Source: Falciphora oryzae (taxonomy: Eukaryota; Ascomycota; Sordariomycetes; Magnaporthales; Magnaporthaceae). Taken from it: a DNA stretch of 64,000 nucleotides. The DNA lies in contig JNVV01000059.1 in NCBI GenBank assembly GCA_000733355.1, positions 83,946 to 147,945 on the forward strand, read 5' to 3'. Shown one piece after another: positions 402-48,257 of the stretch. Made by a program: the position numbers and the translations under genes. The notes beneath the pieces are model-generated. The model saw nothing but the letters and a program-made list of their open reading frames with translations, ran no database searches and had not been told where the DNA came from. Numbering within the stretch: the first letter of the stretch is position 1; every line of letters starts with the position of its first letter.

Positions 402-746
402 GGGCCCAGGGGTGGCCCCGAGGACCTCCCCGCCCAAACCCGGCCTTACCCCTTTTCCGGCATACCCGCCGGCCGAACGCGTCACTGCCACCCGCAGCGC
501 CCACAACGCCCTAGCGTATATATACGCCCCTCCGCCGATCGCCCGCTCACCAACAAGGAGCGCCGGAATGCGGCCCGACCCCCGTGTGCTTCCGGGTTTA
601 ATTTGTTAGCCGCCTCGATAGCAGCACTATAGCCTGGTGTAGATAGGCTTAGGTAGCGCTAGCACCCCGTATGCGCCTAGGGAGGCAGGGACTGGTAAAT
701 CCCGACTTTACCGACGTTAAATATACTCCTCCTCCTCCTCCTCCAC
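402..746 (+). mobile_element. 3' end of a Tad1-like LINE, with CTC-repeat tail
   Basis: This stretch matches 23140-23420 on the same strand and, reversed, 27311-27619 and 49830-50020. Shared blocks include the one starting CGCTCACCAACAAGGAGCGC and the terminal GACGTTAAATA. The copy ends in a CTC microsatellite at about 726-744, while other copies end in (TC)n or (ACTC)n. A common 3' end followed by a variable simple repeat is typical of non-LTR retrotransposons. No reverse transcriptase is present here, so this is a 5'-truncated insertion. The LINE family assignment rests on ORF1 and RT fragments elsewhere in the window. Confidence 0.7.
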
Positions 747-1049
747 CCCGTCTATTGCAATCCTTCCGCCGAAGACTTCCTAGCCTGGGACCCGGTTAGC
801 CGTGCCCTGAGCTGAAAGATGTGCCGGCCGGTCAAATGAACCTTCTGTCCTCCCCCACCCACATTCCCTGACACTGCTTCACTCAAACAAACGAATGCTG
901 ATGTAGCGGCATATCCATCAACTGCCACAGTCCCTTCACCTTGTCAACAACCTTGTAGGTGCGTCGCTCGCCGCCATAGGGACCACCGCGTTTCTTGGGA
1001 GTGCGTTCCTCCCCTCCCGATCCACAAGTGTCTACGCTACGCCGTCCCT
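747..1049. other. intergenic, nothing seen
   Basis: About 300 bases between the LINE tail and the stop codon of the HET gene. No gene, repeat or RNA structure is evident. Confidence 0.5.
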
Positions 1050-4000
1050 TCACGCCTTTGCCTTTGTCCAGCTCCTTGGCCCCGTCTTCTTCGGCATCCG
1101 GGCAGGTGGCCGGCATGAGGTGTCTTTATTTTGCTCCTCCGCCTTCTCTTCCTTCCCGACAATGTCGTCCGTCTGCGGCCGCTCCGCGGCTGCCTCGTCT
1201 TGATTTCGTGGGAGCTCCTCGACGACCCAGCAAGTGCTCATGCTCCGAACCTCGGGGTGCGGTAGCATCTCCCAGGCGGGATTGTACGGCGTGGCCACGA
1301 CGCAGGGCCCATCGACGTCGAACACCGCCACCAGCCGCCGCGCGCGATCTTGATCCGCCTCGAAAGCATCCATCTCGCCTCCGGCGAGCCCCTTGGCGAG
1401 CGTCATCAAGAAGCTCGGGGTCATATGTGGCATCAACCCGCCGCAGCTGCTCGGGTCGTTGAAATTCCGCACTAGGCCGGCTGAGAAAATGCCATGCATT
1501 ATCTGATCCACTAGCTGGCGGTCGAGGATTGTCCGGGCCCTCTTGGTCTCTGGACGCTTCCCCGGGGGTCCCGTTGAAGGGGTTGACGAAAACTCTTCAC
1601 CTCCGCAAACCAATGGGTCTTGCGCCACCATGGTTACCTCCTCCATAGCCTTCTGCGTCTTGCTTTGGAATCCTGGGAACCCCGGGATGTACGATCCGAC
1701 CCAGAGCGCTCCGTGTTCCATGATTCGATCGACGAACCACGTCTGATAGTACCCACAAGAGCCGCCCCTTCTTCTGTCCTTGTCGAGCTGGAGGGTCAAG
1801 AACGGATCTTCAAGCACATCCCGATGCTCAAACAGCTCCTCGCAGACTGTGTCCGGCAGGTCTCTTCGCTCGCGCGAGACACAGGCCACGCGCAGCGACT
1901 GCCAGATGCTGTCGGCCAGCCCTGCCGCCTGCGGGTCCGGAATCACGCTCAAGTGGCGCAGGATCCCGAAGATGATCTCGGCCACGCGCCGTCTGCTCTC
2001 GGCGCTGGACTCGACCTTGTTGGCAATGAGACGCACGCTGAATTGCGCGCCGTCGGGATACAAGCCGTCCCACAGCGGCGAGTCCCGCGGCAAGACACCG
2101 CCGTGGCGGATGGCTTCTAGCTTCGCCCTGGCGCCGAGGTCACCGTCGCTATCCGAGAAGAAGTGTCGGCGGAGCACCACCAGCCGCTCTGCCCTTGCCT
2201 CGGCAGACTCGCCTTCGATCGGCGTGATGGTGAGGACGCATTCCTTCAGCCCGTGCCACATGTCCGCATACTGGTGCTTGAGAATGCTCAGGTCAATCTC
2301 CCTGTCGACCGCCCAAGTATACGTGGGCAGACGCATGCCGGGATCCCCGGGGATCGGCTCATTACCGAACATGTAGGCAAAAGGCCTGACGCGGCTGGTC
2401 TGCGGCGGGGTTCGGTCGTTTATGCTGTCGGATGCGTGTCAAAAGGCGAGAGGAGGCCGCCGCCTCGCACGGCACAGGAGCAATCTGGCTTCCCGCAGGG
2501 CTGCTTGTCGGTCCCCGAGCAGCCATAAAGCTCGGGCACGAGCAACGAAAAGTCCGAATTGAGCAGGGCGAGCGAAAGGACGCCGGAGCGCAGCGAGCCA
2601 CAGTGCGCCGCCGCTTCGGCGGTGTCGATGCGGAGCTCGTAGCAGCACATGTTGGCCACGATGGCGATGCGGTCCTGCGCATCGCGACAGTTCCGCGTCT
2701 TGAGGAGCGTGAGTGCCGTGGCGGCGTTGAGGGCCTGCTGGTTGCCGTACTGTCCACTGCCAGCCATCTGAACCATATCGAACGGGTGTCGGCGGGTCGC
2801 GTCGGTTGGGTGTAAGGCCTCGGCCGCCTCCAATATATTCGTGTAGCCGTGGAGCAGCGCCTGGCCAGTTAGGCCGCGATGCATGAACGCATACAAGGAC
2901 CTCGTAGCCCTCGCCGCGGCACGGAAGTCGTCCACGTGTAGGCCGACAACCTCAGACGGCAATTTGGGCTTCCGAGTGTCCAGGCTGTGTGCCGGTACCA
3001 AAACCAAGCCACCGCCCTCGCCGCGGAACCTTTGTCTGCCCACGACCCCCGGGCTCCTACGAAACACCAGGAGGAGGCCCTTGTTGGAGCTGATGGCCTC
3101 TTGCACCACCCACGCGCGCGTGTACCAGCGCTCGCTTCTGACGGCATCCAAGAACCCCATGGCTTGCGTGTGCCAACGCGTCCCCCACACCCTGGCCAAA
3201 AACTGCGTTGCGAGCAGAGCGAACTGCCGCGGCGCTGACGCGGAGGATACGGTGGTGGTGGCCCTACCGAATGCCGCGAGCTCTTCGACAACGTCGAGCT
3301 GCTCCTGGCCGACCACGATCTCGTCGTGCAGGCCGGCCGTGACCATGGCGCGGTGGTAGACGATATCCATGGCCTGGACGCCGATCTGCTGGTAGATCCT
3401 ATCCTCCTCCGTCGCCGCCCCCTCCGGCTCCGCAGCCAGCTGCGGCAGACACTCCTGGTCGATCCAGATCATGCGCAGGCCGCATGTGTTGGCGAAGTCG
3501 ACGGCGCGGTCCAGCACGTCGTCCAGCGCGCGGGCGGCGCGCGTCGTGCCGTCGAGGTCGCGCATCCGACACGTGCGCCGGAGTCGGCTGTTGTCCTTGT
3601 CCACCCCTTCGCCGTCGGTCGCAGGCACCGCCGGCCAGCAGTACGAGACCGCCACATAGTGGGTGCAGGAGGGGGCGTTCCGCGGTAGCATGATGAGGCG
3701 GAACTTGCGCGCTCTTCTGTTACTGGGAAACTCCGGGAGCCTGGAGCAGACTCGGCAAGGGTGTCGTCGCCAGCCCACTGGCCTAGCTGCTGCTGGGCCG
3801 TTGGTAGGAGACCCGGCCGCCTCGTCGTCGGAAACGTGCTCTGCGCCAGGATCGCCGCGCTGTAGAGGTCTCCCCATCCCTATACCGCGGAAAATGCGCG
3901 CGATCGCTCCCTGCAAGGATCCGTCCGAGGCGCCGCCAGCCTCGGCGCCCCCCGGAGGGGTCGAAGGACCCCCCTCTGTGCTCGAGGAGCCCGCGGCACC

Positions 4001-4587
4001 AGGAGAGTGCACGTTCCTCAGCAACGCTTCGGTCCCCAGCTGGAGAGTACGCTCATCCTCTTCTAGCTCTGGTCCGCCTTGCGAGGAGCCAGCCTCGGTG
4101 CGGTTGCGTGTAGGCGGAGACGACGGGCCAGCCTCCTGTGGCGAGGGACCTGCCGTGGCTGTAGGGCTCGCGGGATTCAGAAACGCCTCAATGCCCCGCT
4201 GGAGCATCCGTTCGTCCGCATCTCCCGCATCTCTGTCGAGGCTGGCACCTCCTAAGAACTCGGCAAAGTAAGCTGCCGAGTACCAATCGCCACACCACCC
4301 GCCTGGCGCGAGGAGCCTTCTCCGTGATTGTCGGCCCGTGAGCCCTCCTCCTCTCCGGTCTCCATCGACATCTTCAGCGCCAGCTCCAGCATGCCCTCGT
4401 CGTCGTCGCTGTCGTAGCCGTTGGTTTTCTCGTCCAGGTCGTCGTAGACCAGGAACCTCATGTACGACTGCGCCCAGAGTGTGGCCTCAACGCGGTTGAT
4501 CTGGAACTCCCAGAGACCTTTCATTTCTTGCAGGCTCTCGAGCCCCATCGGGGGCTGACGCCCGCTTCGCGTGTCGTCTTCCAGCAT
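1050..4587 (-). CDS. HET-domain protein with N-terminal UIM-like motif
   Basis: The protein begins at 4587 with a segment holding DDDEGMLELALKMSMETG (residues about 61-78), which fits a ubiquitin-interacting motif: acidic start, LxxA core, Ser four residues on. A short intron is likely, ending at 4252 (AG) with a donor near 4295-4298, because the frame then continues as GASLDRD. Two related segments follow (DERMLQRGIEAFL and DERTLQLGTEALL). The HET domain sits around residues 295-470 with YVAVSYCW and IWIDQECLPQ, the family hallmarks; HET domains trigger heterokaryon incompatibility cell death. Near 2420 the frame ends (THPTA, stop) and resumes one frame over (RPFAYMFGNE) to a Lys-rich end at 1050. 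I see no credible GT-AG intron there, so a one-base frameshift or assembly error is likely. The protein would be about 1150 aa. HET is firm; the UIM is inferred. Confidence 0.8.
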
Positions 4588-4957
4588 TTTCTTCTTTTGT
4601 TTTTCTGTTCGTCGCGCAAAGGTCTGTGTTGTTTGATGTGTCGGAGGTAGGCCCGTGCCCTATGCACGGGCCCTACCAGGGCCATTTAGCCCTCCCGGCT
4701 TCTGGATCTAGAGTAGTCGAGAACACACAACACTCGTTCCAGGCTGTGCTGCCTGCATTCACCTCCCACATGATGCCCTCTCCCTGCTTTGCAGTGAGTA
4801 ACAGGATTTCGCCAGGGTCAAGTTCCTCCCCAGGTCGTGACTACACCCGGCCATCGAGCACCCGATGGTCCTCTTCTAGAGTGTTGGGAGACTGCCTGGG
4901 GGAAAGTGGTTTCACAGATCGGACACGTAGGTAAGGCAGAATCCCCCGCCCCTTTCC
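4588..4957. other. intergenic
   Basis: Upstream of the HET gene. Around 4650-4690 lies GC-rich dyad sequence (GCCCGTGC and GCACGGGC arms) resembling the interior of the short LTR family found near 49.6 and 56.1 kb, but no clear ends are visible. No gene is seen. Confidence 0.4.
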
Positions 4958-5929
4958 TCACCGAGGGGCAATGCAGCCTGCGCACTCGATGATTGGAAAA
5001 GAAGTCGCGGATAAGGCACAAAGTGCTATATCAGTGACACCATTGTGCAACAAGAACAGCTGAACTGCAAAACCGGGCGGTCTAACCCTCCAGAGGCCTC
5101 TGTACACGACTGCGCATGGGATTTCAAGCCACTGCAGGAGCTCCTGCGCCGTCGCCTGCAGCATCCACGCCAGGCCCAGCGCCGTTGTGCCCGCCGAACC
5201 GAGCGCCGCTGCGGCCGACCCGGAGATGATGGAGATGAATACGATGACCGAGATGACGATAATCACAAACATAAAGACGCTATCGAGCTTCTTAATAACC
5301 AAGTCCAGGTCCTTGAGCGACGCTGCGATGGTCTTCTTCTCCAGGTGGATCTCGTTGCAGGCCAGCCCGAGCCCGCCCATGGAGATGTCACCGTTGAGAT
5401 CCCGGTCGAACATTCCAAAACAAGCCTCGGCCTCGTCGGACATCTCGAAGACGCGCAGGAAGTCGTCGAGCACGATGGTCTCGCGGTCGGGCGGGCACAG
5501 GTACCGGTACAGCATGCGCGCCAGCGTCTGGCCCGACGGGGTCGACCGCAGCAGCTCGTTCAGGACCTTGCGGCCCGTGAAGTCGCCTGCCACGCGGTTG
5601 GCCACCGTCCTGAATTGGTTCCACCCCTGACACGCGCTCTGCTGCAGGGCGGCCATGGGGATCTTGGCGCCGCTGTTGCCGCCGGCAGGGTCTGGCGACA
5701 GCATCCACGACTCGAACCGAAAACGAAACATTGGCGGCCTCCGCAAGCCGCCCACCGAGACCCCTGACGATTCGAAGCCGGACGAGCGTGATGCTTTTAC
5801 CCCTCGGGCAGAGCGACAGGGGGGTGCGACGGCTGACGCAAATACGGACAAGACCCCGCTGGCCCGCCGACCATATTGACAAGTGCAGCAGATGTATGTC
5901 TTCTCCTCGGACGCCTCCTCGGACGTCAA
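4958..5929 (-). pseudogene. truncated EF-hand MscS-type channel
   Basis: The reading frame carries an EF-hand loop (FDRDLNGDIS) and then SLKDLDLVIKKLD followed by a hydrophobic segment (FMFVIIVISVIVFISIISG), a second glycine-rich hydrophobic stretch and ATAQELLQ. This order is that of fungal mechanosensitive channels of the MscS family with an EF-hand (Msy1/Msy2-like, ER membrane). After ATAQELLQ the conserved beta-domain that should follow is replaced by unrelated residues. The usual N-terminal membrane segments are also absent; the first 90 residues look like random translation. It is therefore an internal fragment of a roughly 900-aa protein. Confidence 0.7.
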
Positions 5930-6231
5930 CGGTGGCGGCCAGATCAGCAGCAGCAGTGCATTATCGACACAGAAGCGGAGGAGGCATATTGAACCCAGCG
6001 AAAACCAGTTGAGTTCTTCGCATTTGCCAGCGCCACGGGCAAACGTTGCCCTTTGCCCTCGAGCTTGCGGGGCTGGTTAGCGACTTCAACGCCGCCAATT
6101 TCGTCTCCCAGTCCTGCAGAGGCGACATCCAGGCCCTTGCTGTTGTTTGGACAGATCATGCTGGGTTGCTTCGTCATTGGCTAATTTTTATCATTGGTCC
6201 ATCTGCTGTCGTCTACCGTGAATTCCTTCCT
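5930..6231. other. no gene recognised
   Basis: Sequence between the MscS remnant and the nuclease-like fragment. Short frames only. Confidence 0.4.
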
Positions 6232-6330
6232 GCAGACACCAAAAACGGCGAAAAGGTCGACTTTTGTCTGACGATCAACCCGCACTGGACTGAGGAGGAC
6301 GAGCTCTCGATCGACAACATCGACACGTCC
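6232..6330 (+). pseudogene. fragment resembling a fungal PD-(D/E)XK-like protein
   Basis: The translated segment NGEKVDFCLTINP followed by an acidic stretch resembles the KxVDFC-type strand that precedes the catalytic core in a widespread fungal PD-(D/E)XK nuclease-like family. No ExK motif follows and the frame degenerates within 100 bases. I rate it as a remnant only. A homology search with this segment would decide. Confidence 0.3.
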
Positions 6331-7358
6331 TTCTACTGGCCCGCGACGACCTGGCCAGGCGCGTCGGCCAGCATCGTCGCATGTGGACGAGGCGCGGAAG
6401 GCTCGGCGTCGGCGGCGGCGGGCTGACAGGAGATAACAACCGGACGCTGCTTCAAGGGCAAAACACATCGGTGTGACAGTCGTCATTCCAGGGCTGCTCC
6501 GACTTTGTGCTAGGGTTCAGCGTAACCAAGATGCCCCAGGTCAAAAGGTCTGGTGGTGTTACAAGATCCCCGCACAACAAGGGGGCACGGTTTCACGGCG
6601 AGGATGGGGAGGAGAAGAACGAGCTCGACTTCGAGCTAGAACATATGCCGCGGGAGGTGGCAACGGGTGAGATGGTGTAGGTCGAAGAAGAGATCGCTGG
6701 TCTTGAGCCTTCGTGGCGGGTGCTGTAGAGGCTTTGAGGGCCGTGCTCGGGACTTGTTGTAGAAGCCACGCAGATGCAGAATTTGATTCCCACGCCCGGA
6801 AAGGAAAAGCAGACGTTTAAAGCTACATAGACTTATGTACAGGTAAAATTGAAGGGATATAGTTCACGAAAAAAGCAGCAAAGATGTCCGGCGGCCCAAG
6901 TGAAGTTGGAATTGGCGCGTGGGCGCACGCACGGCAAAACAGGTAGGCTGGCACGGACCATAAGTACTAGGAAAACATCGGGCGCGTAGCCCATTTCCCT
7001 TCCGACGGTCGTAGCTCGTCGCTTTCAAAGCTGCGCGACACCGTGTTTTTTGGTTCTAAGCTCACAAAAGCACCTGCGCGCTACTCACAAGCGACGAATC
7101 TCGCATAATCCGGTGGATCAGCGCGCTCCCGGCCGCGTTGCCCGCCGACGCGCCCCAATTGTCTTGCCCCTACCGTAAACGCAAGCCGCTGGCCCGTACC
7201 TCCTCTGCGTCCTCCACGGCCACGACCAACAGTAGCCGCTGCACCGGAGGCAACATCGGGAGCTCATTGAGGCGCGGCCGCTAGCCGGCAATGACACCCT
7301 GCCGGCAGGGCTGTTCGAGTGGCGGCGGTGTGATTGTTGACTTTGAGCCCTGGTAAGA
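6331..7358. other. no gene recognised
   Basis: About 1 kb of low coding content. No repeat family of this window and no RNA gene is evident. Confidence 0.4.
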
Positions 7359-12749: not shown

Positions 12750-12990
12750 GATAAATAGCTAGCCGTGCGCCATCATCAAGTCTCTCTTCCTCCTCCTTTC
12801 TCACCACCGTCGGGCACAATTTCCTTTTGTCTTTTGTCTGTTGTTTTCCTTTTGTCTTTTTCCTTTTGTCAGTTTCCTTTTGTCTCTTCTCATTCTTACC
12901 TTCATCCTTCCTTCCACCCATCGCCTCTTTTCGTCAACTTTCGAACCAAACCAACCACTATCGACAACGGTTTCTATTTCAGCAGCAAAA
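12750..12990 (+). promoter_or_regulatory. core promoter and CT-rich 5' leader of the 12991 gene
   Basis: A TATA-like GATAAATA lies at 12750-12757, followed by a pyrimidine-rich leader with repeated TTTTGTC. The 12-mer ATTTCCTTTTGT (12819-12830) recurs exactly in the leader of the second precursor gene (24438-24449), which also has ATAAATAT upstream. Confidence 0.5.
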
Positions 12991-13617
12991 ATGCAGTTCT
13001 TCAAGATCTCGTTGGCCCAGGTCGTCGTGGCCGGCCTCCTGGCCACCTCGGCCGCCGGCGCCCCCCTGCCCCTGTCGGGCGATCTCGCCATCCGCGATGA
13101 CTTCTCCGCCATCGGGGGCCCCGTGCTGTACACCCGCGAGCCCAAGAGCAAGTTCAACCGCTTCATCAGCGGTGCCTGGAATAAGATCAAGCCCATCGCC
13201 AATGCTGCCATCCAGACCGTCGCGCCGGGCGTCGAGATCTCGAAGCGCGAGCCCGAGCCCGAGCCCAAGAGCAAGTTCAACCGCTTCATCAGCGGTGCCT
13301 GGAATAAGATCAAGCCCATCGCCAATGCCGCCATCCAGACCGTCGCGCCGGGCGTCGAGATCGCGAAGCGCGAGCCCGAGCCCGAGCCCAAGAGCAAGTT
13401 CAACCGCTTCATCAGCGGTGCCTGGAATAAGGTCAAGCCCATCGCCAATGCTGCCATCCAGACCGTTGCGCCGGGCATCGAGATCGCGAAGCGCGACGTG
13501 GTCGACACCCTCATGGCCCGCGACTTCGACGAGGCTGCCGAGCATGAGGAGGCCGCCGAGTTCGACGAGGCCCCCGAGTCCCTCGAGGCCCGCGACTTCC
13601 ACGAGCACTGGGAGTAA
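12991..13617 (+). CDS. secreted Kex2-processed tandem-repeat peptide precursor
   Basis: The 208-aa product starts with a clear signal peptide (MQFFKISLAQVVVAGLL, cleavage likely near SAAGA). After a short pro-region come three nearly identical 41-residue repeats at residues 50-90, 91-131 and 132-172. Each holds KSKFNRFISGAW, a KPIANAAIQ segment and a Lys-Arg pair (85-86, 126-127, 167-168). Between repeats the residues after KR are EPEPEP, the X-Pro dipeptide pattern a Ste13-type dipeptidyl aminopeptidase can trim, as in alpha-factor precursors. The predicted released unit is about 33 residues, net charge about +4, a cationic N-terminal half, a central Pro and a hydrophobic C-terminal half, reminiscent of cecropin-like helices. 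The tail is acidic (DFDEAAEHEEAAEF). I chose this ATG because upstream in-frame sequence is the CT-rich leader. A role as antimicrobial or signalling peptide is inference. Confidence 0.85.
   Translation: MQFFKISLAQVVVAGLLATSAAGAPLPLSGDLAIRDDFSAIGGPVLYTREPKSKFNRFISGAWNKIKPIANAAIQTVAPGVEISKREPEPEPKSKFNRFISGAWNKIKPIANAAIQTVAPGVEIAKREPEPEPKSKFNRFISGAWNKVKPIANAAIQTVAPGIEIAKRDVVDTLMARDFDEAAEHEEAAEFDEAPESLEARDFHEHWE
13138..13506 (+). repeat. three tandem 123-bp coding repeats
   Basis: Units start at 13138, 13261 and 13384 with GAGCCCAAGAGCAAGTTC and differ by only a few, mostly silent, bases. They encode the repeated peptide of the precursor. Confidence 0.95.
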
Positions 13618-16337: not shown

Positions 16338-16806
16338 GCGCATACCTCGGTAGGGCACTCTCTTTGCAGGGCGCTGTACTTAACCCCGGGGTTCCTTTTG
16401 ACTGTTAAAAGTAACTGCCTTTAGCCGCGTTAGAGAGCTTCCCAGGGCTACCGGAACGAGGCAGGGACTCAAAGGTGCTGTGGTTTTGTGCGCGTTTGAT
16501 CGTGTTGGTAATGGTGCGCGTCGTTCATTGGAACTCCTCGGCCAGGGCTCTTTTGGATTTACCAGCCTCCTAAGCGCTACAAATAAATGCACGCTGCATG
16601 GGAGTTAATTCGGCATTTTTAAGGCGATTTCCGCTTATAACAGCACCAAAATGACGGATAGGAGCCGCCATTTAAGCCAACAGTCGGCGATAGAAGATGG
16701 TACGCGGTGGTGCAGACGCGACGCGATTTTTGGTGGGGGCGGGGAAAGTGGAACAGACTTTTGTCACATTACTGTACAATCCAACAGCCACGGTAGTTAC
16801 GAGAAG
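16338..16806. other. upstream region of the 16996 gene
   Basis: No separate gene is seen. An in-frame upstream ATG at 16651 exists, but the translation from it to 16996 has no coding character. Confidence 0.4.
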
Positions 16807-16816
16807 AGCTATAAAT
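16807..16816 (+). promoter_or_regulatory. TATA-like element
   Basis: GCTATAAATC lies about 180 bases before the chosen start codon, within a GC-rich region, so it is a plausible TATA box for the large gene. Confidence 0.4.
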
Positions 16817-16995
16817 CCGGCGAGGGTCCCCCGAGGCTATTGGGCAAAAATTCTCCACCCTCCAGTATCCATTCTCTGGGCCCGGAGAGAGTACGCACAC
16901 CGAAGCTATTCACACATCCACGCACACTCCTCTTGGGCCTTTGCTACATACCCACACCAACCTACTTCGTCTTTTACCCTCACATATCCCATACA

Positions 16996-19900
16996 ATGAC
17001 GCTCACCAATCCTTTCGCTCGCCGTCCCCCCGTCCCAAGCCAGCCCCCGTGCAGTGCCTCCAGTGAGACACTGCATTCACGGCCCGCGCTGGGACAGGAT
17101 GTGCAGCTCGGCATGCTCTACGATGCGCGGACCTCGCGGCTCTTCCCCGGCGCCTCGCTATTCACCGGTGACGTTGTCAACGCGAAGCAGGAGTTGAGCG
17201 AGCATCAGGACCAAATCCCCAGCTTCAACGCCTCATACTCGCTCAAGGAGGCGCGCCAGAACAGCTCCCTCAGTGCCGAGGACTCGCTGGGCCTCGACCT
17301 CGGGCTCTTGGACGTCACGGGCTCGGCCAAGTACCTCGTCCGAAACAAGGAGAGCGCGTACGAGGCGCGCGTCGATGCAACCTGCATCGTTAGGCGTCGC
17401 ACGCGCCGCATCCCGCAGGAGGCCCTGGCATCCATGGCATACGAGAGCCACCCCGACGACGCTCGCTACACGCACTTCGTCGCCGAGGTGGCGGAGGGTG
17501 GAAGCGCTACTCTCACTTTCTCCTATCGCTGCAAATCAGCCACGGAGGCCGAAACAGTCGCGGACCAGCTCAAGATGAGGATCCTTGCGAGGATACCAGT
17601 CGGGCTTGTTCCCGGAGACAGCGTCAATGCGGATGTTTTGGAGATGGGAGAGTCCATGCTCGACAAGGTCAATTTTTTGTACAGCGGCGCGGTGGCTGAA
17701 GACGTGCCCAGCATCGAGGACGCCCGACGTATTGTTCAAGAGATGCCGGAGAAGCTCGCGACGCGGCTTGACACGATCAGCTACAGGCTCCTGCCGCTCA
17801 GCGTGCTCAACGGAAGAACGGGTCGTCTTGTCCACGACATCGACGCCGGTCTGGTCGAGAAGACGGCTGCAGTGCTCGACGCCGGCACCACGGCAGGCCT
17901 CCAGCTGAGTGAGCTGCGCTACGAGTCCGAGTTTCTAGATCTTTTCCCTAGCGTCGGGGTACAAATCATCAACATCCAGACCGTCTTTGCCGCAGCCGAG
18001 GCTGAGTTCGTGCGGGAGGTGCGGCGCCTTCTGCCCGAGCTGCGAGACGGCGAGACGGACGTTTGCACGCAAGCCAAGGTCGCTGAGCTCCAAGCGGCTG
18101 TCGCTCTCTTCCGGCAGCGTGCCAGACTTGCTGAAGATTTCATCACCAGGAAGCACAGCGAACTCCGTATTCTTCGCGGGTCTGCCTCCGAGCTGCTGGA
18201 GCGCGGCTTCGAGGACCATCTCAACCGGCCGCCGCATGCCCTCTTGGACGCCGGAGCGCCGAAACTGCTCCTATCATTCGGAGGTCGTTCGATCGGACGT
18301 GCCGAGCACCCACTCAGGGCGAGGATCTTGTCCCCAGTTCTGGAGACCGGTGAGGGACATGTGGCTGAAGACGACGACTGGGTCAAAGAGGGCGACGACG
18401 ACTCCGGCACCGAGGTAAACCACGACGACTCGGACGACGAGGAAGAAGAGTGGTTTGAAGATCAGCAGGTCGTCGCCACGGTGAAGCAATCTGCGGCCCT
18501 CCTACTCCAGCAGCTCTCGCTGACAGCCGGAGGGGCCGACGTTGTTTTCGGAGTGGCGAACATCGACAAGGCTTCTCGCCCTGGAAGGAAGAACAAAACC
18601 AAGACCAGCGTCGGCGATATCGTGCTGGCCAGCCATGGAAAGCTTGTCATCGCCACGGGATGTCTCCCCAAGGCTCCCGCGGCCCCAAAGCTGACCGTCG
18701 ATGGCCAAACCATTACTGTGACTTGGCGTCATGAGCGCGGGGAGCCCGAGGAGCTAGTCATCCCGACGACCGGCTTCACCGTCAAGTATCGCCGTCGGCT
18801 TAACCCCCTGAAAGACGGCGCCTTCCCTCGGGCCGCCGAGAATGAGGGTGCCACCGAGATCGCCTGTGATGCTCCCGTCACACGGGCAGTGCTAGGCTCG
18901 CTGTCCGACGACTGCGACTACGAAGTGGCACTCAATATCCGGACGACTGTAGGAGTGTCGGAGTGGAGCGTTTTTGTCGTGGCCCGCACGGCCAAGCTGC
19001 CATCAGTGGCTTCCAAGATGATGGACTTCTTTGACAAGAACAGCGACTCTCTCTCGACAGCGCGCTCTAGAAAGCAGCTAAAGTCGTGGGAACTGGACGC
19101 TTCTGGCAAGGGTGGGCACAAGAAGACGCTTTTTCTGAGTCTCACTGAAGTAGCCCGGCGTTACAGCACAGACCCGCGTTTCTCGAGCGAGGTTGCTGTT
19201 CGCATTGTCGACGTCGCCGCCGACTTCAGGCCCGAGATCAAGGCTGCGCCCATCGATGACTTAAACAAGACCTTGGTGGTCGTGTTTGCGGGCACCAGTG
19301 GCCATGGCAAGAGCACCGAGATCAACGCCTTCATCTCGTACCTGCTGGGCGGCGAGGTTGATGACCCGGCACGTATCCTGGCAATCGATGACCGCGGCGC
19401 CCCGCAGTCCGGGTCGGTGACGCAGATGGTCACCTGCTATCGCATTCGGCCACTCTCGTCCCTCTTCCAGGGGAAGACGCTGCTCATCGTTGACACGCCC
19501 GGCTACGGCGACTCTCGGGGCCTCGAGCGTGACGCCTTCGTTACGGCGGCCATGTCTGAGTTTTTCAAGACGATCGACCATGTCAACGCCATTGTCTTCA
19601 CCTGCCGCGCCAACGAGGTGCGCACCACTTTCCTCAGCCCTGTGTCGACATATGTCTTTTCGCTTTTCGCTAAGGATGTCCACAGCTGCCTGCGGACTAT
19701 CTATACCTTCAGCGACGCCGGGATCCCTTTGGCCCGTGGCGCCCTGACCAAGCTCGAGTGGCCGGTAGAGAATGGTGAAATCTCGGTGAACAATAGTGCT
19801 TTCACCGTCGAAATGGACGGCGGCCAGAACGATATCGCGATTCGCGAGGGCTGGGTCCAGTCGGTTAGGGGTCAGTTCCGGCTGATGCAGATGCTCCTGC

Positions 19901-20943
19901 GCGCGCCGGCTGTGTCGACCAAGAAAAGCGCTCGGGTGACGGACAACCGGATCCGGCTCGAGCAAAAGTGCGAGCTCGCCGAGAAGATGATTCTTCGCAC
20001 CGCAAACGACGCACAGCAGCTCATCGCCCGCCTGGGCGCGCTCGCCGACGCCGTCGGAGCCGCCCCGGGCGAAAAGATCGAGGTGATCCAGGACAGGGCG
20101 GTCCAGAAGCCCGTCCCAGACGGCAAGGCAACCACGCTCTGCCTCGACTGCAATTTCACATGCCATGAGATCTGCTTATACGGCGACGACAAGGACAAAA
20201 TGTTGTGCACCGCTATGCATAACGGCAAGTGCATGATGTGCAAGGGACACTGCAGCTGGGACAGGCACAAAAACGCCACCTTCACAATCATCACCGAGAA
20301 GTACTCCACGTGGATGGTGCCCCAGGAACTGATCAGTCGGTGGAATTCCAATAATAACACGCTGGAGGGCGCCCTCGTCGCTGCCATGGACACCTACCTC
20401 CTACTTCAGGAGAAGCTGCGGAACGACATCCTCGATTTGGCCGAGCTGAGCGAGGAGCTCATAACAACGGCGATTCTGCACGACCCGACCAGCCTTATAG
20501 ATTACATCGACACATTGATTCAGACGTCTCGCGCTCGCGGCGCTCCTCCCGCACAGCTGGCGCAGCTAGCGACGGCCAGGAACACCCTAGTCCTCGTAAA
20601 AGAGGTCAAGGGCAAGAGGGAGGGGGCGACGCGGGACTCCATGATCTTGCTGCAGGTCATAAAGGCCGTGCGCGAGGAGATGGTCCGGAGAATGAAACTA
20701 TCCCCCAAAGAGCGTGCAAAGGAAGAGACGAAGTCGTGCAATTTGTACAACAGGCTTCGCGAGGAGCTCCCCGTCGAGATTCGGGGCGAGGCGCCACCGC
20801 CGCTCGAAAATGGAGGCTGGTTCACGAAAGGCGCGCTCTATCCCGAGAACCTCCAGGCGGTCGTGACGCTGGTCCAGATCGTGCTGACGGACGGCGGCGT
20901 TGTTGCTGCGCTCGCCGCCTCGGGCCGCCTCGCGAGCCGCTAA
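16996..20943 (+). CDS. SNTX/MACPF-like plus GTPase multidomain protein
   Basis: The product is 1315 aa and intronless. Residues about 35-300 (VQLGMLYDARTSRLFPG and after) match the N-terminal MACPF/CDC-like region of the stonustoxin family. A middle helical region and a SNTX-type thioredoxin-like part follow, then an acidic linker (about 463-490) and an FN3-like segment (about 560-660). A GTPase domain of AIG1-like type follows, with P-loop GTSGHGKST at 766-774 and DTPG at 833-836. A Cys/His cluster at about 1049-1098 (CxxCxxxCH...CMMCKGHC) and a helical C terminus end the protein. Fungal relatives of stonustoxin usually keep the fold without proof of pore formation, so toxicity is not implied. 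I chose the ATG at 16996 because it opens directly before the conserved region and sits in a typical leader. Neighbours suggest a defence or recognition context. The cellular role is unknown. Confidence 0.8.
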   Translation: MTLTNPFARRPPVPSQPPCSASSETLHSRPALGQDVQLGMLYDARTSRLFPGASLFTGDVVNAKQELSEHQDQIPSFNASYSLKEARQNSSLSAEDSLGLDLGLLDVTGSAKYLVRNKESAYEARVDATCIVRRRTRRIPQEALASMAYESHPDDARYTHFVAEVAEGGSATLTFSYRCKSATEAETVADQLKMRILARIPVGLVPGDSVNADVLEMGESMLDKVNFLYSGAVAEDVPSIEDARRIVQEMPEKLATRLDTISYRLLPLSVLNGRTGRLVHDIDAGLVEKTAAVLDAGTTAGLQLSELRYESEFLDLFPSVGVQIINIQTVFAAAEAEFVREVRRLLPELRDGETDVCTQAKVAELQAAVALFRQRARLAEDFITRKHSELRILRGSASELLERGFEDHLNRPPHALLDAGAPKLLLSFGGRSIGRAEHPLRARILSPVLETGEGHVAEDDDWVKEGDDDSGTEVNHDDSDDEEEEWFEDQQVVATVKQSAALLLQQLSLTAGGADVVFGVANIDKASRPGRKNKTKTSVGDIVLASHGKLVIATGCLPKAPAAPKLTVDGQTITVTWRHERGEPEELVIPTTGFTVKYRRRLNPLKDGAFPRAAENEGATEIACDAPVTRAVLGSLSDDCDYEVALNIRTTVGVSEWSVFVVARTAKLPSVASKMMDFFDKNSDSLSTARSRKQLKSWELDASGKGGHKKTLFLSLTEVARRYSTDPRFSSEVAVRIVDVAADFRPEIKAAPIDDLNKTLVVVFAGTSGHGKSTEINAFISYLLGGEVDDPARILAIDDRGAPQSGSVTQMVTCYRIRPLSSLFQGKTLLIVDTPGYGDSRGLERDAFVTAAMSEFFKTIDHVNAIVFTCRANEVRTTFLSPVSTYVFSLFAKDVHSCLRTIYTFSDAGIPLARGALTKLEWPVENGEISVNNSAFTVEMDGGQNDIAIREGWVQSVRGQFRLMQMLLRAPAVSTKKSARVTDNRIRLEQKCELAEKMILRTANDAQQLIARLGALADAVGAAPGEKIEVIQDRAVQKPVPDGKATTLCLDCNFTCHEICLYGDDKDKMLCTAMHNGKCMMCKGHCSWDRHKNATFTIITEKYSTWMVPQELISRWNSNNNTLEGALVAAMDTYLLLQEKLRNDILDLAELSEELITTAILHDPTSLIDYIDTLIQTSRARGAPPAQLAQLATARNTLVLVKEVKGKREGATRDSMILLQVIKAVREEMVRRMKLSPKERAKEETKSCNLYNRLREELPVEIRGEAPPPLENGGWFTKGALYPENLQAVVTLVQIVLTDGGVVAALAASGRLASR

Positions 20944-36606: not shown

Positions 36607-37552
36607 TTAGTCCTTCATGAAACCAAGAGCGACATCTCCAGATATAACACCCCCTATCTGCTTGCTCTTGCCCCTCGCTACCATCTTATCTATAGTAACG
36701 CTGGCTCCCCCGGCCTTCACGTCGCCGATCACACCGAGCAGCTGCCTGGACTGGTCTAACGCCTCCGCGTACACGACCGTGTTACCTGTCGCCGCTGTAG
36801 CGTCCCCCAGGATGGGCAGGCAGACGGCTGCGCACCTGGTCAGCATCTCGGCCTGCCACTCCAGCGCCCCAAGCAGCGCCTGGTTCTCGCTGCCGAGCTG
36901 CGCTGCCGCAGCCTCGATGCCAATGGCGAGACCTTGCACCTGGCCATTAATGCTGGCCAAAGTGCTGGTCGCGGTCGACTCGAGGCGGCGGAGGGTTTCG
37001 CCATTATCGGAGGCCGATTTGCTGGGATACCGGAGTCTGGTCAGTTTCGGTCGTTGTATTTTTCCCTAACCTTCAAGCTGCCGTGGGACAAGTCGGCGTG
37101 GCTGCGTTGTCATACATGGATGCGAACGAGAGCGCGAGGTTCAGCGTTGACTTGTAGCTCTGGATCCGGAACTTGAAGCCCGCGACGGTCTTCTCCTCAA
37201 AGTGCAGCCTCGTCCGATCGCGCCAGCTGGTGTGTCCAGGCGTCGAGTGCGTTGTGACTTTGCCGAGCCAGGCCTTGAACTCGTTATATGTTACCCCGCA
37301 GGCTTCCGCGGCAGGCCCCACGTTGGCAAGCCACGTCTCGTACGATTGCGACCGACTTTCCCGCTGGGTCTCGAATTCACGGGCTAGCGAGTCGAGGATG
37401 TCATTGAGTGCCTCGACGTCCGAGGTCGTCTCCGACAGAAGTTTCGGCGCGTCCTTGATGCCTTTGATTATCTCATATAAACCCTTTCCCACCTGGGCGG
37501 CAAGGGTTATGACCCCAATCGCGCTGGCGGCGGTGCCGAGGAATTCTGCCAT
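36607..37552 (-). CDS. HeLo-like/STAND-N-domain effector with C-terminal pseudo-repeats
   Basis: Two exons, 37552-37116 and 37021-36607, are joined by a 94-base intron with donor GTATGA, branch AACTGAC and acceptor CCCAG. The join is in frame and gives 283 aa. The N terminus (AEFLGTAASAIGVITLAAQV and GLYEIIKGIKDAP) is typical of the helical N-terminal domains of fungal STAND proteins and HeLo-like cell-death domains. The C terminus has two pseudo-repeats: SRQLLGVIGDV at about 237 and SKQIGGVISGDV at about 265, the latter reaching nearly to the end. Glycine-rich paired motifs at the very C terminus recall HET-s-related amyloid motifs. The gene is head-to-head with an NB-ARC/TPR NLR 552 bases away whose N terminus has similar motifs. 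A role as cell-death effector switched on by that NLR is inference. Confidence 0.75.
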
Positions 37553-38104
37553 GTTCCGGACTTTGAAGGGTGAAGGGTGAGGGGATGATTGCTGGGACAA
37601 GAAGCGAGAGCCCGTCTACGGTTGTCTTCTGGTACCACGCATGGTTAACGAGACATATTTTCAAGACATCAATGGGGGGTCACATTGCTACCTACCCCAC
37701 CGCAAACTTGCAGGAGGTGTCGACCAGGGCTACTGTTGGTCGCTGTCTCGTAGGTTGGGCGCGATCCATAACTATGCAAAAGAAGAAAAATAAAATAGAG
37801 TAAAATAAAATAAAATAAGGCCAGCCAATTCAGGAGGCGTCAACCACTGCATTTTCGTACTGCCGTCTCGTTGGCTGACGCCGTATCTTTACGTAAAATA
37901 CAGAGACTGAGGCTAAGAAGGGCGGAGGCCGAACAGCGCATAGGGGATTCGGCCAGCCCGACCTGAAGCTCCCTCAGAACAAACCCGGCATCCCGTCCGA
38001 CCTCTTTCAATTGACAAGCACGATCGCCTACCAGACCTGTCGCGCCTTTCGCAGCGAAATCTGCTCGCCGGCTCCAGCACCCAGTTGACAACCGAACCGC
38101 TACA
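37553..38104. promoter_or_regulatory. shared divergent promoter region
   Basis: A 552-base intergenic region between two divergent starts. It includes an AT-rich TAAAA tract at about 37786-37818. No gene within. Co-expression of the pair from here is plausible but not shown. Confidence 0.4.
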
Positions 38105-40881
38105 ATGTCCCCGTCCTCGGGGGTGACTGCTCGCAGCGATGGCGCAGCACTGCCGTCAACTGCCCAAGGACAGGCGGATGGCAGCATCGCCCGAGAATTC
38201 CTGGGTGGCGAAATAACCGCCGGAGCCCATGGTGCAGTGCCGCCAGGCACAGGCGCGACCCACGTTGGCTTGGCGAGCGCCTCTGGGAACGCGAGGCAGA
38301 TTGTTGGCAACGTCATAACGAACAACTACATGGGCTCGCCGGGCGGGCAAAGTGGTGTGTTTCCTTCTTCGAGTTGTGCCAATATCTGGCGTGATATCGG
38401 CGCTGCCCCGTAACGTTAAAAAAAGTTAGCGCCGTCCGTGCTGCCTAGGCCAAAGCTGACGTTTGCATCCGCAGAACGACCAGAAACCCCGCCGCAGCCG
38501 TTCGCGACCATCCCCTTCTCCCGCGACCCCGATTTCGTCGACCGTGGAGACATTCTCGACCGGCTTCGTCAGCGATGTTCCGAGCCGGCCGGCCGTGTGG
38601 CTCTTGTAGGCCTGGGTGGCATTGGGTACGCGTAGTTCTGTTCTGAACCTGCCGGAAGAAGGCTGACCAGCAGCAGCAAATCGCAGCTGGCCATCGAATT
38701 TGCCCACCGAATTGCCCAGGAAGCAGCCGAGAAATGGATCTTCTGGATCCATGCTGGCACGCAGGCTCGCGTTGAAGAAGGCTTCAGGGCCATTGCCGAC
38801 GCCGTTAAGCTGCCCGGTCGAAACCAGCCCAACGCCGACATCCCACAGCTCGTCCACAACTGGCTGTCCAACGAACGGAACGGCACGTGGATCATTATCC
38901 TTGATAGTGCTGATGACCGAGACGCGTTTTATGCAATGAACGGCAGCCGCGAAGGGAAGCCGTTGGCAAGCCACCTCCCACAAAGCCGAAACGGATTTAT
39001 CGTTGTCACGACACGCAACAAAAACCTGGCCTATAGGCTGACGGGGAACCACAAAAACATTACTGAGGTTGGGCCGATGGTGCTGGTAGATGCTCTGATG
39101 CTTTTGGAGAAAAAACTGGGCCCACTTTCGGATACAAACACGGCAAAGGAGCTGGTGCAGGCGCTTGACCTCGTTCCCCTTGCCATCAGCCAGGCGGCGG
39201 CGTACATCCAGGCAAGGTCGCCGATGAGCTCGGTTGAAAAGTACTTGGCCGAGTTTCGCAAGGGCGAGCGTAAGCGGGCCTTGCTTTTAGCCCACGACGC
39301 GGGCGACCTGCGGCGAGATGGCGGCGCGTCGAACGCGATCCTTATTACCTGGCAGATCTCGTTTGACTATATCCGCTCGCGGAGATCTTCCGCGGCCGAT
39401 CTTCTGTCGCTTATGAGCTTCTTCGATCGACAAGGCATCGCTTTGTCGCTTTTAAAGCCCGTTAACGGCGAAGGTGTCCCGCAAGTAGCGCGCCTTGATG
39501 CGCCAGAGGACTCAGGATCCGAGTCTAGCAGCAGCAGTGACGAATCAGATAACCGCTTTGAAGACGATGTGGCTATCCTGAGGACTTTTGTCTTGTGGGT
39601 ACGAACGAAGATGGGAGTGCGTTTGAAATGCACGGGCTCGTGCAGCTGTCGATGCGGAGGTGGTTGGAAACGGACGGGCGGCAAAACAAGTTCAAGCAGC
39701 AGTTTGTTGAACGGATGGCGGCAGTGTTTCCAACGGGGGACTACAGCAATTGGGCGACGTGCCGGCAGCTTTTTGCGCACGTCGAAGCCGCTGTAGACTG
39801 CCGGCCAGCGGAGGAGGGTGTGCAGGAGTTGTGGGCAAGTCTTATGTGCAACGGGGGATGGTATGCGTGCTCGCAAGGCAGGTACGAGGTGGCAGAACGA
39901 ATGGAGGGCAAAGCGTTAAGGAGTCGTAAAAAGAGGTTAGGAGAGGAGCATCCTTCGACGCTGACCAGTATGGCCAACCTGGCATTAACGTATGGCAACC
40001 AGGGCCGGTGGAAGGAGGCGGAGTCACTGGAGGTGCAGGTAATGGAAACGAAAAAAAGGGTGCTGGGAAAGGAGCACCCCGACACGCTAACCAGCATGGA
40101 CAACTTGGCGTCGACGTACCGCAAGCAGGGCCGGTGGAAGGAGGCCGAATCGCTGGAGGTGCAAGTGATGGGAACGAGCAAAAAGGTGCTGGGAAAGGAG
40201 CATCCTAACACGCTAACCAGCATGGCCAACCTGGCGTCGACGTACCGCAACCAGGGCCGGTGGAAGGAGGCCGAATCGCTGGAGGTGCAAGTGATGGAAA
40301 CGAGAAAAAGGGTGCTGGGAGAGGAGCATCCTGACACGCTAACCAGCATGGCCAACCTGGCGTCGACGTACCGCAACCAGGGCCGGTGGAAGGAGGCCGA
40401 AGACTTACAAACAAAGGAACTTGAGATTTGCTCAAAGGTGCTGGGAAAGAAGCATCCCGACACGCTAGCCAGCATGGCCGATTTGGCGTCGACGTACAGC
40501 AACCAAAGCCGGTGGAAGGAGGCCGAATCGCTGGAGGTGCGAGTAATGGAAACGAGGAAAAAGGTGCTGGGGGAGGAGCATCCCGACACGCTGACCAGCA
40601 TGGCCAACCTGGCGTTGACGTACGAGGACCAGGGTCGGTGGAAGGAGGCCGAAGACTTACAAGCAAAGGAACTTGAGATTTGCTCAAGGGTGCTGGGAAA
40701 GGAGCATCCCGACACGCTGGCCAGCATGAGCAACCTCGCTTTCATTCGGAAAGGCCAAAACCGGCATGCGGATGCCTTGGCGTTGATGAAGGAATGTGCG
40801 CAGGCTCGGCAGCAAGTCCTTGGTCCAGAGCACCCGTACACTTTATCATCTTTGGCAGTGGTGGGCAGGTGGAGTAGTTAG
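38105..40881 (+). CDS. NB-ARC/TPR NLR with N-terminal amyloid-like motifs, one frame break
   Basis: Exons 38105-38354, 38475-38625 and 38677-40881; introns 38355-38474 (branch GCTGAC) and 38626-38676 join in frame and complete the P-loop GLGGIGKSQ. NB-ARC signs follow: IIILDSADD (Walker B), FIVVTTRN, LVPLAISQAAAYI, a winged-helix stretch and FEMHGLVQLSMRRW (MHD-like). The C terminus has eight 42-residue kinesin-light-chain-type TPRs (EHPDTLTSMANLA). Before the NB-ARC, residues 28-40 (IAREFLGGEITAG) and 62-74 (NARQIVGNVITNN) are 34 residues apart and resemble each other and the C-terminal repeats of the divergent neighbour. At 39591-39600 the frame shifts by one base between FVL and GTNEDG, so the gene is either inactivated or mis-assembled there. 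The TPR DNA repeats are nearly identical, typical of fast-evolving fungal NLRs. Confidence 0.8.
39918..40850 (+). repeat. 126-bp tandem TPR-coding repeats
   Basis: Seven to eight units with GGTGCTGGGAAAGGAGCATC and CGGTGGAAGGAGGCCGA blocks at 126-base spacing. High DNA identity between units suggests recent duplication or conversion. Confidence 0.9.
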
Positions 40882-42250
40882 AAAGCGTCTATTCGGTTTT
40901 ACGGAATATGACGGTGCTTTGCAGCACAAAATTGACATGAAAAGAGTGGTTGCTTTGCAGATGTCCATGATTTCGACGTCGCCCAAGTGTTGCTGTACAG
41001 AGCGGACGGAGAGCACACTGTAATCGGCGCCGTGTCAGGAACATCCAAAGCTGAAACTTGGACACTGATTTCGGTCTCTGCTGCAATTCAACGTGTGCGC
41101 GCGTCGAAGGCGCTCATTGGAATGATGAAGCCCGCCTTTTGACGCTGTCGCTGGCGCGCGCGCGTTTGACTTGATTTGGTGCTATCGCGGTTCGTTCCAA
41201 ATGTGCGTTTCGCACTTCCATTCGATTGTGCACGCATCCCGTTGAAATATGGATGTGATGGTCGGAACCCGTATGTGGAAAAGTCGCTATATGCGTACCC
41301 TTTCGAATGCTGCCCGCAATCGAGTTGTGGGAACACTAGCAGGGCGGGAAAAGAGGCACTTGGGAAAGTGAGAGCAACAGGAGCGCAGGGCCACGCCCTT
41401 AAAAAAAAAAAAAAAAGGCAATTCGATGGGGTCTGGCGAACTGCCCGGAACGGCAATACTGCTCCCGCATCTACGAAAATAATAGGTGTAATTATTATTT
41501 TCAACTAGAAAATTTATTAAGCAGCGAATCCGTTCGCCATTTATTTAACTACGGAAAGGACCTCGCAAAACGATTACGGACCACGGAAGGAACGGAGCCC
41601 ATGGCCCTATCAGGTGACCAAGGCAAGGGCCCAACGGGCCCGGGCCGCCGGATCAAAAGGAGCCAGCCTTCCCGGAGTGGGCCCTGATGCAGTAGACACT
41701 GCCAGAGGTCCCGCCGCGCTCTAGGGTGCTTGGGGAGAAAGTTGTAGGCAAGGTAAAGAAATTGGAAGCGGAGACGGACGGAGGGAGCCAGGGGCAGTCG
41801 CCGGGCTCGCAACCGCCACCCTGGACCCTATGGTCATGCTCAAGTCGAACGGCACCGCCGCCGCCACCGCGTGCCCGGCGACAAGGGGAGTGAGGGCGAC
41901 CCGGCGGCGGCGTGCTTGCTGCCGCCCAAGGCGTACCAGTGCCGGCTGTGCCCGTGTGCGCGCACATACGGCGTCCAAGACCGAGAACGGCGCCGTTGTC
42001 GTGATGTCCGTTGCTGCACTAGCCGTGCCGGCCGCCGGCGTAGTATCCGCCGCAACTCCAACTTTGCCCTCTTGGGTTTCGCATTACGCGCAAGCGGCGG
42101 CACGGTACCAGCAGCAGCAGCAGCTCCGTCTTGCGGTGGCCCAAGCGAGCCTCCTGCTGCAATAGGCTCTGCGACGGGCCGCGTCGGTGCCGACACGACG
42201 CTGATGTCGGCAGATGCAGGGCCGGGACGGAAAGGACTGTCGCCTAGTGG
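40882..42250. other. no gene recognised
   Basis: The 3' flank of the NLR and GC-rich DNA with unconvincing frames. An A16 run lies near 41400 and a CAG microsatellite near 42108-42125. Confidence 0.4.
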
Positions 42251-47059: not shown

Positions 47060-47931
47060 GTTAATCCGGATCGAACTTGCATATACGCCGCGCTCCTACC
47101 CATGCAGGAGCAGCAACAGCCGTACCAGGTTGAAGCGTGCATCTGCTCCGTCTGAGAGCCGAGGTTTTGTGGACCCCGCCGAACCATTTCTTGAGCAGGC
47201 CTGGCGCTGTCTCATCGGACAGGGACTGCGCGTGCCTACACTCCATGAGCCCAGTAGAGCTGATACTGGCCAAACATCAGCACCCGCGGTGCCAGCATGC
47301 GCTCCTGGAACACCCATCCCCGGCTCTCCAGCACGCTCCTCGCGACCGTGGTACCCCACTCATAGTTCGGCACCACTTGGCACTTCTTCAGCGTGCTCTC
47401 GGGGTATCTATAGGTGGGGGGGGGCATAAATATCTGCAAATCCTCGGCCTCTAGGTCGCCTAACGGGGTGCGCGGGCGGAAAAGCCCACCGGCGCTGTCG
47501 CTGGAGGCGGCATCCGCGATATTGAGGTAGCTGCACGAATAGACCTTCTCCATCTGGGCCGATTCGACCTGCCAGTCCTCGAAATCCTGCTGGATGATGC
47601 AAAGGGAATCGATCCAGATATACCGCAGCGACAGCTCGCAGCATACCTCGACGGTTTCGCGGGACGTATTGGGCAGCTCGGGGATCGGGGTGCCTGCTGC
47701 GGTGGTCCATTCGTTGGTGTTGTCCCTGTCGGGATTTGGGGATTTCGCGCTACCCCAGCAGTGGTTCGACGTCGCGCAGGGGCCATCCACGCTTTTCGCG
47801 GGTCGTCGGGACGGGGCGGGCCGAACCTGCGGCGACACCAGAGGTGTCGATAAGCCGAATCGGATACCAACCAAGTTCGCTCGCTTTCTGCACAGCTTAT
47901 GGCCGGAGTCGCTTTTAGCACAATTTTCCAA
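47060..47931 (-). pseudogene. broken HET-domain gene
   Basis: The frame has NHCWGSAKSPNPDRDNTNEW, LSLRYIWIDSLCIIQQD, DWQVESAQMEKVYS and SAGGLFRPR, the core of a HET domain. RGWVFQERMLAPR then follows, and LYW. After that the frame is lost at about 47250: LMECRHAQSLSDETAPGLL continues one frame over. The segment before CWG is replaced by unrelated sequence. At least two lesions make it a pseudogene. Confidence 0.75.
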
Positions 47932-48023
47932 CCACTTTTTTGCAACCGTCCTTACCGGAGCCGAAAAGGTTATGCTGCCTTGGAGAATGTACCTAGGCAG
48001 GTGTGCTGCATAAAAATACCTTT

Positions 48024-48257
48024 TGTCACGGCACCAACGAGGGCGAAGAGGCTGAGCTGCAACAGACCCTCAGGTTGATTTGGCTATCTAGAGTTAAGGA
48101 ACAAAAAAGGAAGAGTTGTGCGTTGCACCTGTTCGGATCGATTGCCTTAGGTAGGGCGATCGAGCCGGGCTCCACTTGTCGCACGGATCTGCCAGGCGCC
48201 CGTGCAACAGGTGGGCGTACCTGACACCGAGCCCTACCAGGGCTACGTGCCATAACA
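48024..48257 (+). mobile_element. solo LTR, family B (about 231 bp)
   Basis: Begins TGTCACGGCACCAACGAGGG and ends GTGCCATAACA. A near-identical copy at 60024-60254 has an exact 5-bp target duplication, which identifies the element type. No duplication is seen here. Confidence 0.75.

Follow-up and report, generated by a model that had tools for sequence, protein, structure and literature searches.

The described systems that stand closest to the locus studied here are FNT1 with its partner HELLF and PNT1 with its partner HELLP, whose NOD-like receptors (NLRs) are of the NB-ARC/TPR type (PMC7885112; PMC7889193). The present locus is a pair of divergent genes, a HELL-domain effector and an NB-ARC/TPR NLR, in a 64,000-nucleotide stretch of Falciphora oryzae (contig JNVV01000059.1, positions 83,946 to 147,945), which is called the window and whose numbering is used throughout. 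The first-pass annotation of this DNA regarded TPR-type NLRs with such effectors as little described, a view that FNT1/HELLF and PNT1/HELLP contradict. The pair is best explained, with a probability of about one half, as an amyloid-type cell-death pair whose NLR is chimeric and combines a body of the PP type with a non-PP first exon, possibly related to the HET-s-related amyloid motif (HRAM), and with another effector. Carrying this explanation are the gene structure, the domains, the adjacency of the genes, the recombined head of the NLR and the PP-motif match at sibling loci, all of which were observed directly.

With FNT1/HELLF of Podospora anserina (HRAM) the window pair shares a HELL effector of similar size (277 vs 283 residues in the window), a tail with two repeats and an adjacent NB-ARC/TPR NLR. 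It differs from that system, with HELLF compared by description only, in that the motif rules are satisfied in part, the NLR candidate lies at residues 50-70, the body is of the PP type and the NLR frame is broken. In common with PNT1/HELLP (Podospora, Chaetomium; PP) are the NB-ARC/TPR body, the HELL effector and an intron of the same phase right behind the motif exon of the NLR, and two further loci of this genome, the siblings C78 and C60, are of the PNT1/HELLP type. The Podospora PNT1 intron occupies nucleotides 95-148 and the HELLP intron nucleotides 429-475 (PMC7885112); by our own arithmetic, intron 1 of the window NLR has the phase of the former and the effector intron (phase 2) that of the latter. 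Unlike PNT1/HELLP, however, the window pair has no GxQxG/NxGxQxGxN core and no match to PF17046 at E ≤ 10, and PP membership was rejected for it. NWD2/HET-S (Podospora, HRAM1) is similar in its doubled C-terminal effector motif, its N-terminal NLR motif and its adjacent genes, but has HeLo instead of HELL and a NACHT/WD receptor, and no window segment matches PF11558 (HET-s motif) at E ≤ 10. The genome search with PF11558 gave two matches, both under the cut-off; this model does not define HRAM, since of 155 HRAM proteins it recognises just 38 (PMC4518210).

The start codons of the two genes were placed at 37552 (minus strand) and 38105 (plus strand) by enumeration of open frames and splice sites, which leaves the gap of 552 bases between facing divergent genes that had been reported at first. 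The effector gene (36607..37552, minus strand; 283 residues) comprises exon 1 (37552-37116, 437 nt, phase 2), a single intron of 94 bases (37115-37022) and exon 2 (37021-36607), which are joined in frame. Its predicted HeLo-like nature is confirmed by PF17111 (PigL_N, HeLo-like/HELL domain), which spans residues 3-209 (Pfam, E 1e-23); residues 210-283 form a 74-residue tail without a Pfam match. The NLR begins with the head exon, exon 1 (38105..38354, plus strand; 250 bases, 83 codons plus one nucleotide, phase 1), whose counterpart was not found in the sibling NLRs. Intron 1 (38355..38474, plus strand) is followed by the NB-ARC coding part (38475..39589, plus strand; exon 2 38475-38625, intron 2 38626-38676, exon 3 from 38677), which matches PF00931 with 30.5 bits vs a cut-off of 23.5 (E 2.8e-7). 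The TPR part (39592..40881, plus strand; stop 40879-40881) has a repeat unit of 126 bp (Tandem Repeats Finder: period 126, 6.3 copies, 39940-40736) and contains eight TPR_10 stretches, which together with the NB-ARC match, the two parts being treated separately in the family searches, establishes the assumed identity of the receptor. The effector intron and both NLR introns are our choice among several candidates; they have acceptable donors, a branch-like CTGAC and an AG acceptor, and they keep the frame. The effector, of HELL type and with a C-terminal extension, is thus the neighbour of an NLR whose N-terminal region is short.

The 50-Mb genome contains at least nine PF17111 matches at no fewer than eight places, and eight copies of the NLR body, the window copy included, were found at 62% protein identity or more. 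Apart from the window's own copy, NLR exon 2 has four close matches (87-94% protein identity) and a weak one at 49%; none of these reaches into exon 1, and the genome search found no relative of exon 1. At C78 (L027) a HELL gene stands head to head with an NLR, the effector tail ending in VTFGSHNQGQQVGVNSGTISGRFGRKA and the NLR starting with MMQFTFGSGNRGQQVGQNYGTISAEIHLPPG. At C60 (L026) the HELL gene is followed by the NLR on the same strand, and the corresponding segments are VTFGNGNRGQQVGVNSGIISATFGGKE in the tail and MTTHLFTSFGPGNHGQQVGQNYGTMNTEIHLPPG in the NLR. Comparison of the full 81-residue tails with the NLR termini gave scores of 73 and 58 within the pairs and of 57 and 80 across them, each reached by none of 5000 shuffles, and the outcome was the same with trimmed peptides. 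PF17046 (cut-off 23.2 bits) was passed by three of the four sibling peptides (C78 tail 25.9, C78 NLR 23.9, C60 NLR 24.4 bits), the C60 tail staying below it at 15.6 bits; when the whole genome was scanned, two places exceeded the cut-off, and the motif of the C78 NLR, at 22.0 bits, fell short of it. Judged by its GxQxG core, the sibling motif is the PP motif of HELLP/PNT1 (PMC5485727). The amyloid-signalling layout proposed for the window pair is supported mainly by these two loci, with the same body, HELL effectors and a shared PP motif, and less by the window's own motifs, which are weak.

An insertion of about 0.8 kb interrupts the NB part of the C78 NLR (L027, G000:C78:1-9000, about 4110-4975), and in the C60 NLR the frame stays open from the NB part onward to the end. 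Body copies at C9, C17 and C78:89k carry stops or are truncated, and in the stretches examined at C9 and C78:89k the heads, too, are truncated or decayed. Two body fragments differ upstream, the one at C61 being alpha/beta-hydrolase-like below the Pfam cut-off and the one at C78:149k having no match. Close to a truncated body copy in L028 (G000:C78:144500-151537), a STAND protein of the NACHT/NPHP3_N kind was observed (470-2137, minus strand), with HELL-like sequence immediately upstream of it. Remnants of a HELL effector of the window type, decayed and with stops at 85-87% DNA identity, lie in L040 (C67, 4582-4897) and L041 (C5, 4754-4888), and the stretches fetched there show no match to the window NLR up to its frame break. 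Another HELL copy, interrupted by an in-frame stop, was seen in L032 (G000:C91, about 5040-5447, minus strand), followed by a lipase-like GHSLGG segment (by eye); the strings N.G.Q.G.N and GQQVG are absent from all frames of that stretch.

The five-copy DNA alignment shows where the window NLR departs from its relatives. Likeness starts near the intron-1 donor of the siblings, at about 38424 of the window and thus inside intron 1, which is chimeric, and the shared body block (38424..41498, plus strand) matches about 3450-6863 of the C78 stretch, which has the insertion and another number of TPR units. In the NB region the DNA identity is 90.9% between window and C78, 81.5% between window and C60, 82.9% between C78 and C60, and 86.2% between C60 and the C61 fragment. 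The alignments of the HELL effectors, by contrast, reach only about 25-27%. A tree in which the two PP-headed bodies form one clade was rejected by 46 log-likelihood units (approximately unbiased (AU) test, p 6.1e-6), this clade having been chosen after the pairwise identities were known. The C61 and C78:149k fragments as a clade were not rejected (AU p 0.064), with C78:149k filling only 31% of the columns. Since the PP-headed bodies are not one clade, heads and bodies have recombined. Intron 1 is of phase 1 in the window, C78 and C60 copies. Pairwise ratios of nonsynonymous to synonymous change (dN/dS) in the body are 0.24, 0.15 and 0.18 over 281 codon columns in three comparisons, which shows past constraint on the family without implying that the window copy still functions; the indices of repeat-induced point mutation of six stretches are unremarkable by eye.

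On this alignment the window NLR is a chimera joined in intron 1, which would have arisen by exchange of a head cassette (effector plus motif exon) or by overwriting of the body. A tentative form of the first history, to which we give clearly less than an even chance, is that an intron-bounded cassette of NLR motif exon and divergent effector is the unit of exchange and would have switched the body from PP to a second, non-cross-seeding amyloid code, possibly of an undescribed motif class. The reverse history, in which gene conversion from a PP-type NLR overwrote the NLR body of an old non-PP pair, is only somewhat less probable than its negation; this estimate applies within the best explanation and is not additive to the others. 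It agrees with the likeness to C78 that runs through the intron, the NB-ARC and the TPR parts to about 600 bases past the stop, but nothing decisive speaks on either side, as both histories yield the same chimera.

The motif strings quoted at the outset are present in the window pair. SRQLLGVIGDV occupies effector residues 237-247 and SKQIGGVISGDV residues 265-276, and IAREFLGGEITAG and NARQIVGNVITNN occupy NLR residues 28-40 and 62-74, both outside the matched Pfam domains. In the register of the HET-s motif, the tail repeats are R1 (36727..36789, minus strand; residues 224-244, TGNTVVYAEALDQSRQLLGVI) and R2 (36643..36705, minus strand; residues 252-272, ASVTIDKMVARGKSKQIGGVI), which lies seven residues beyond R1. 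The best candidate in the NLR is the segment r0 (38252..38314, plus strand; residues 50-70, GATHVGLASASGNARQIVGNV), whose match to the tail, taken alone, is not significant. As regards the matching motifs that had been described, the doubling of the tail is supported (internal repeat p 0.003 in shuffles). The claim that both NLR segments are motif copies is not supported: the internal repeat of exon 1 has p 0.28, the other segment (38186..38224, plus strand; residues 28-40) is unsupported as a repeat, and a second NLR segment as a true repeat was rejected, so that one motif copy in exon 1 is possible.

Several results weigh against the amyloid-type explanation of the window pair. The 74-residue tail and the 82-residue exon 1 peptide align with a Smith-Waterman score of 35, a value that 452 of 5000 shuffles also attained (p 0.09). 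The tail matches the NLR terminus of C78, a PP-type protein, at a score that 386 of 5000 shuffles reach, so its own partner is no better; for the C60 terminus 3763 of 5000 do so. An 11-residue block common to four segments was equalled by 17% of 150 shuffles and is not significant. The profile check of both termini that had been suggested turned out negative, as no Pfam amyloid model matches the tail or exon 1, and the effector, compared with a large protein collection that apparently holds few fungi, gave 6780 candidates with none at E ≤ 0.001. The HRAM rule scan described below discriminates poorly. No second intact pair with the window-type head was found in the genome, only the decayed effector pieces at C67 and C5. 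Finally, the NB-ARC and TPR parts of the window NLR occupy different frames. Among sequences of known structure, the PDB was searched with exon 1, with the effector, with its tail and with a profile of three segments; the 6, 4, 3 and 2 chains listed, respectively, include no amyloid chain.

The difference in frame between the NB-ARC and TPR parts results from a frame break (39582..39590, plus strand), a one-base length difference vs both siblings, which read through at this place. The in-frame splicing claimed for both sides holds for the introns chosen in the effector and for NLR introns 1 and 2 and fails at about 39582. Many GT/GC-AG pairs could formally bridge the two frames there; an ordinary intron at the NB-ARC/TPR junction was considered and found unconvincing, as the pairs listed lose residues kept in the siblings or are very short. 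The break suggests that the window copy is perhaps no longer working or that the assembly contains an error, and the copy may be decaying. A rival explanation, rather unlikely in our estimate, is that the locus is a dead chimera, in which a 5'-truncated copy of a dispersed NLR body ended up next to a HELL gene unrelated to it, with exon 1 an accidental frame and the motif likeness due to chance. The frame break, the weak motif match, the absence of exon 1 relatives from the genome search and the state of the family (of the seven other body copies, five are decayed or truncated, and the PP copy at C78 has its insertion) agree with it. However, the head-to-head arrangement is the same as in the C78 PP pair, intron 1 retains phase 1 and the effector is open and spliced in frame. 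Moreover, the probability that a given copy would by chance lie within 2 kb of one of eight PF17111 places in 50 Mb is about 6e-4 by our arithmetic.

If the pair is of the amyloid type, a more ordinary identity for it would be that it is simply of the FNT1/HELLF type, its motif being an HRAM (signature R/K at position 15, Q at 16, G at 19) and its head no new class. The literature describes HRAM preferences for R/K at 15 and G at 19, with Q at 16 in HRAM5 and at 18 in HRAM4 (PMC4518210); HELLF is named HRAM5 in one paper (PMC7889193), and its partner FNT1 is NB-ARC/TPR (PMC7885112). The Podospora HELL protein is placed in HRAM4 elsewhere (PMC4518210), and because the two papers disagree on the class number, Q16 in HELLF itself is only putative, which lowered our estimate for this identity slightly. 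The HRAM rule scan followed PMC4518210, with a numeric scoring over nine positions of our own. The highest scores fall on residues 224-244 and 252-272 of the effector and on residues 50-70 of the NLR, and these three segments have [RK]Q..G in the same register. The position rule asks for hydrophobic residues at 5, 8, 10, 16 and 18 (some classes accept Q at 16 or 18), a positive residue at 15 and G at 19; positions 15, 16 (Q) and 19 conform in all three segments. The HELL domain is present with two tail repeats whose 7-residue loop lies inside the published 6-18, and two [RK]Q..G spaced 23-39 apart occur in none of 1091 background pieces, a pattern chosen post hoc.

Against an HRAM pair, position 18 is G in R2, positions 8 and 10 are weak and merely A in R1 and the NLR segment, and the receptor candidate, although on an NB-ARC/TPR protein, begins at residue 50 and not at the very N terminus, where most HRAMs start at 5-9 (PMC9815663). 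Shuffles gave p 0.054 and 0.106 under strict residue classes, and 0.010 and 0.016 under lenient ones. Among the background pieces, which were drawn from open frames of the window and the fetched loci and thus include window and sibling pieces, the scores were reached in 18 and 119 (strict) and in 5 and 13 (lenient). The tail of L030, another HELL protein, scores 12 strict and 14 lenient on a longer piece of 104 residues vs 11 and 14 in the window, and two PP tails score 8 strict and 12-13 lenient. The lenient scan, at first sight favourable, is discounted because this control tail reached an equal score, and the rule scan is unspecific. An HRAM-like motif is our best named guess for the window head, at the level of a guess and not of demonstrated membership, and the plain HRAM pair is judged a minor possibility, somewhat less probable than the dead chimera. 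Sigma, by comparison, is a motif of about 40 residues consisting of three repeats of two submotifs.

For the preferred explanation a mechanism can be drawn by analogy with HELLF/FNT1 and HELLP/PNT1. The TPR array would sense a ligand, upon which the NB-ARC would oligomerise; clustered exon-1 segments, with residues 50-70 as the best candidate, would then form a cross-beta seed, which would convert the two repeats in the effector tail and free the HELL domain to attack the membrane. Amyloid formation and mutual templating by the tail and exon 1, as well as a past or present function of the pair, are what we infer from this analogy. A globular fold of the segments was considered through structure models, built from single sequences with no alignment, in which exon 1 has a mean predicted local distance difference test (pLDDT) of 46.9 and effector exon 2 a mean of 59.5, with residues 105-137, which contain R2, below 50. 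Such low-confidence models neither favour nor rule out amyloid segments. Signalling without amyloid, with exon 1 a glycine/alanine/serine-rich linker and the effector activated otherwise, is quite improbable: it agrees with the exon 1 composition (by eye) and with the weak helices that the models place on R1 and the NLR segment, but pLDDT is only about 43-65 there and the sibling NLRs bear PP motifs in the corresponding first exon.

The surroundings of the pair contain other genes of interest. HET-domain (PF06985) open frames were found at 2423-4486 (minus strand, E 9.4e-12) and 47239-48069 (minus strand, E 9.9e-23), and therefore the region has several genes of non-self-recognition type. The open frame at 12763-13617 (plus strand) has three near-identical segments of 30-odd residues with KR-EPEPEP-type spacers (by eye) and resembles a precursor from which repeats are processed as pheromone or antimicrobial-type peptides, Pfam giving only a sub-cut-off Orai-1 match. 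A 1444-residue open frame at 16609-20943 (plus strand) contains a P-loop-like GTSGHGKST segment (by eye) and no Pfam match at E ≤ 0.001.

Near-identical nucleotide-binding domains joined to different N-terminal domains are known among fungal NLRs (Dyrka et al., 2014, Table 2; PMC4986451), and adjoining effector and NLR genes have been proposed as possibly co-inherited in recombination (PMC9815663). The window resembles those cases in its highly similar nucleotide-binding bodies with different heads, but there whole N-terminal domains were listed, whereas here the exchange seems to comprise the motif exon and the neighbouring effector gene. No described case of such a joint exchange on a PP-type body was found in the literature searched, in which few subscription journals are represented. 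The locus therefore appears to be a concrete case in which one receptor body carries PP heads at two loci and another head at a third, with intron 1 as the site of the break. Provided that both heads are functional, it would offer a direct test of the portability of the signalling code between bodies and of the separation of pathways by motif class.

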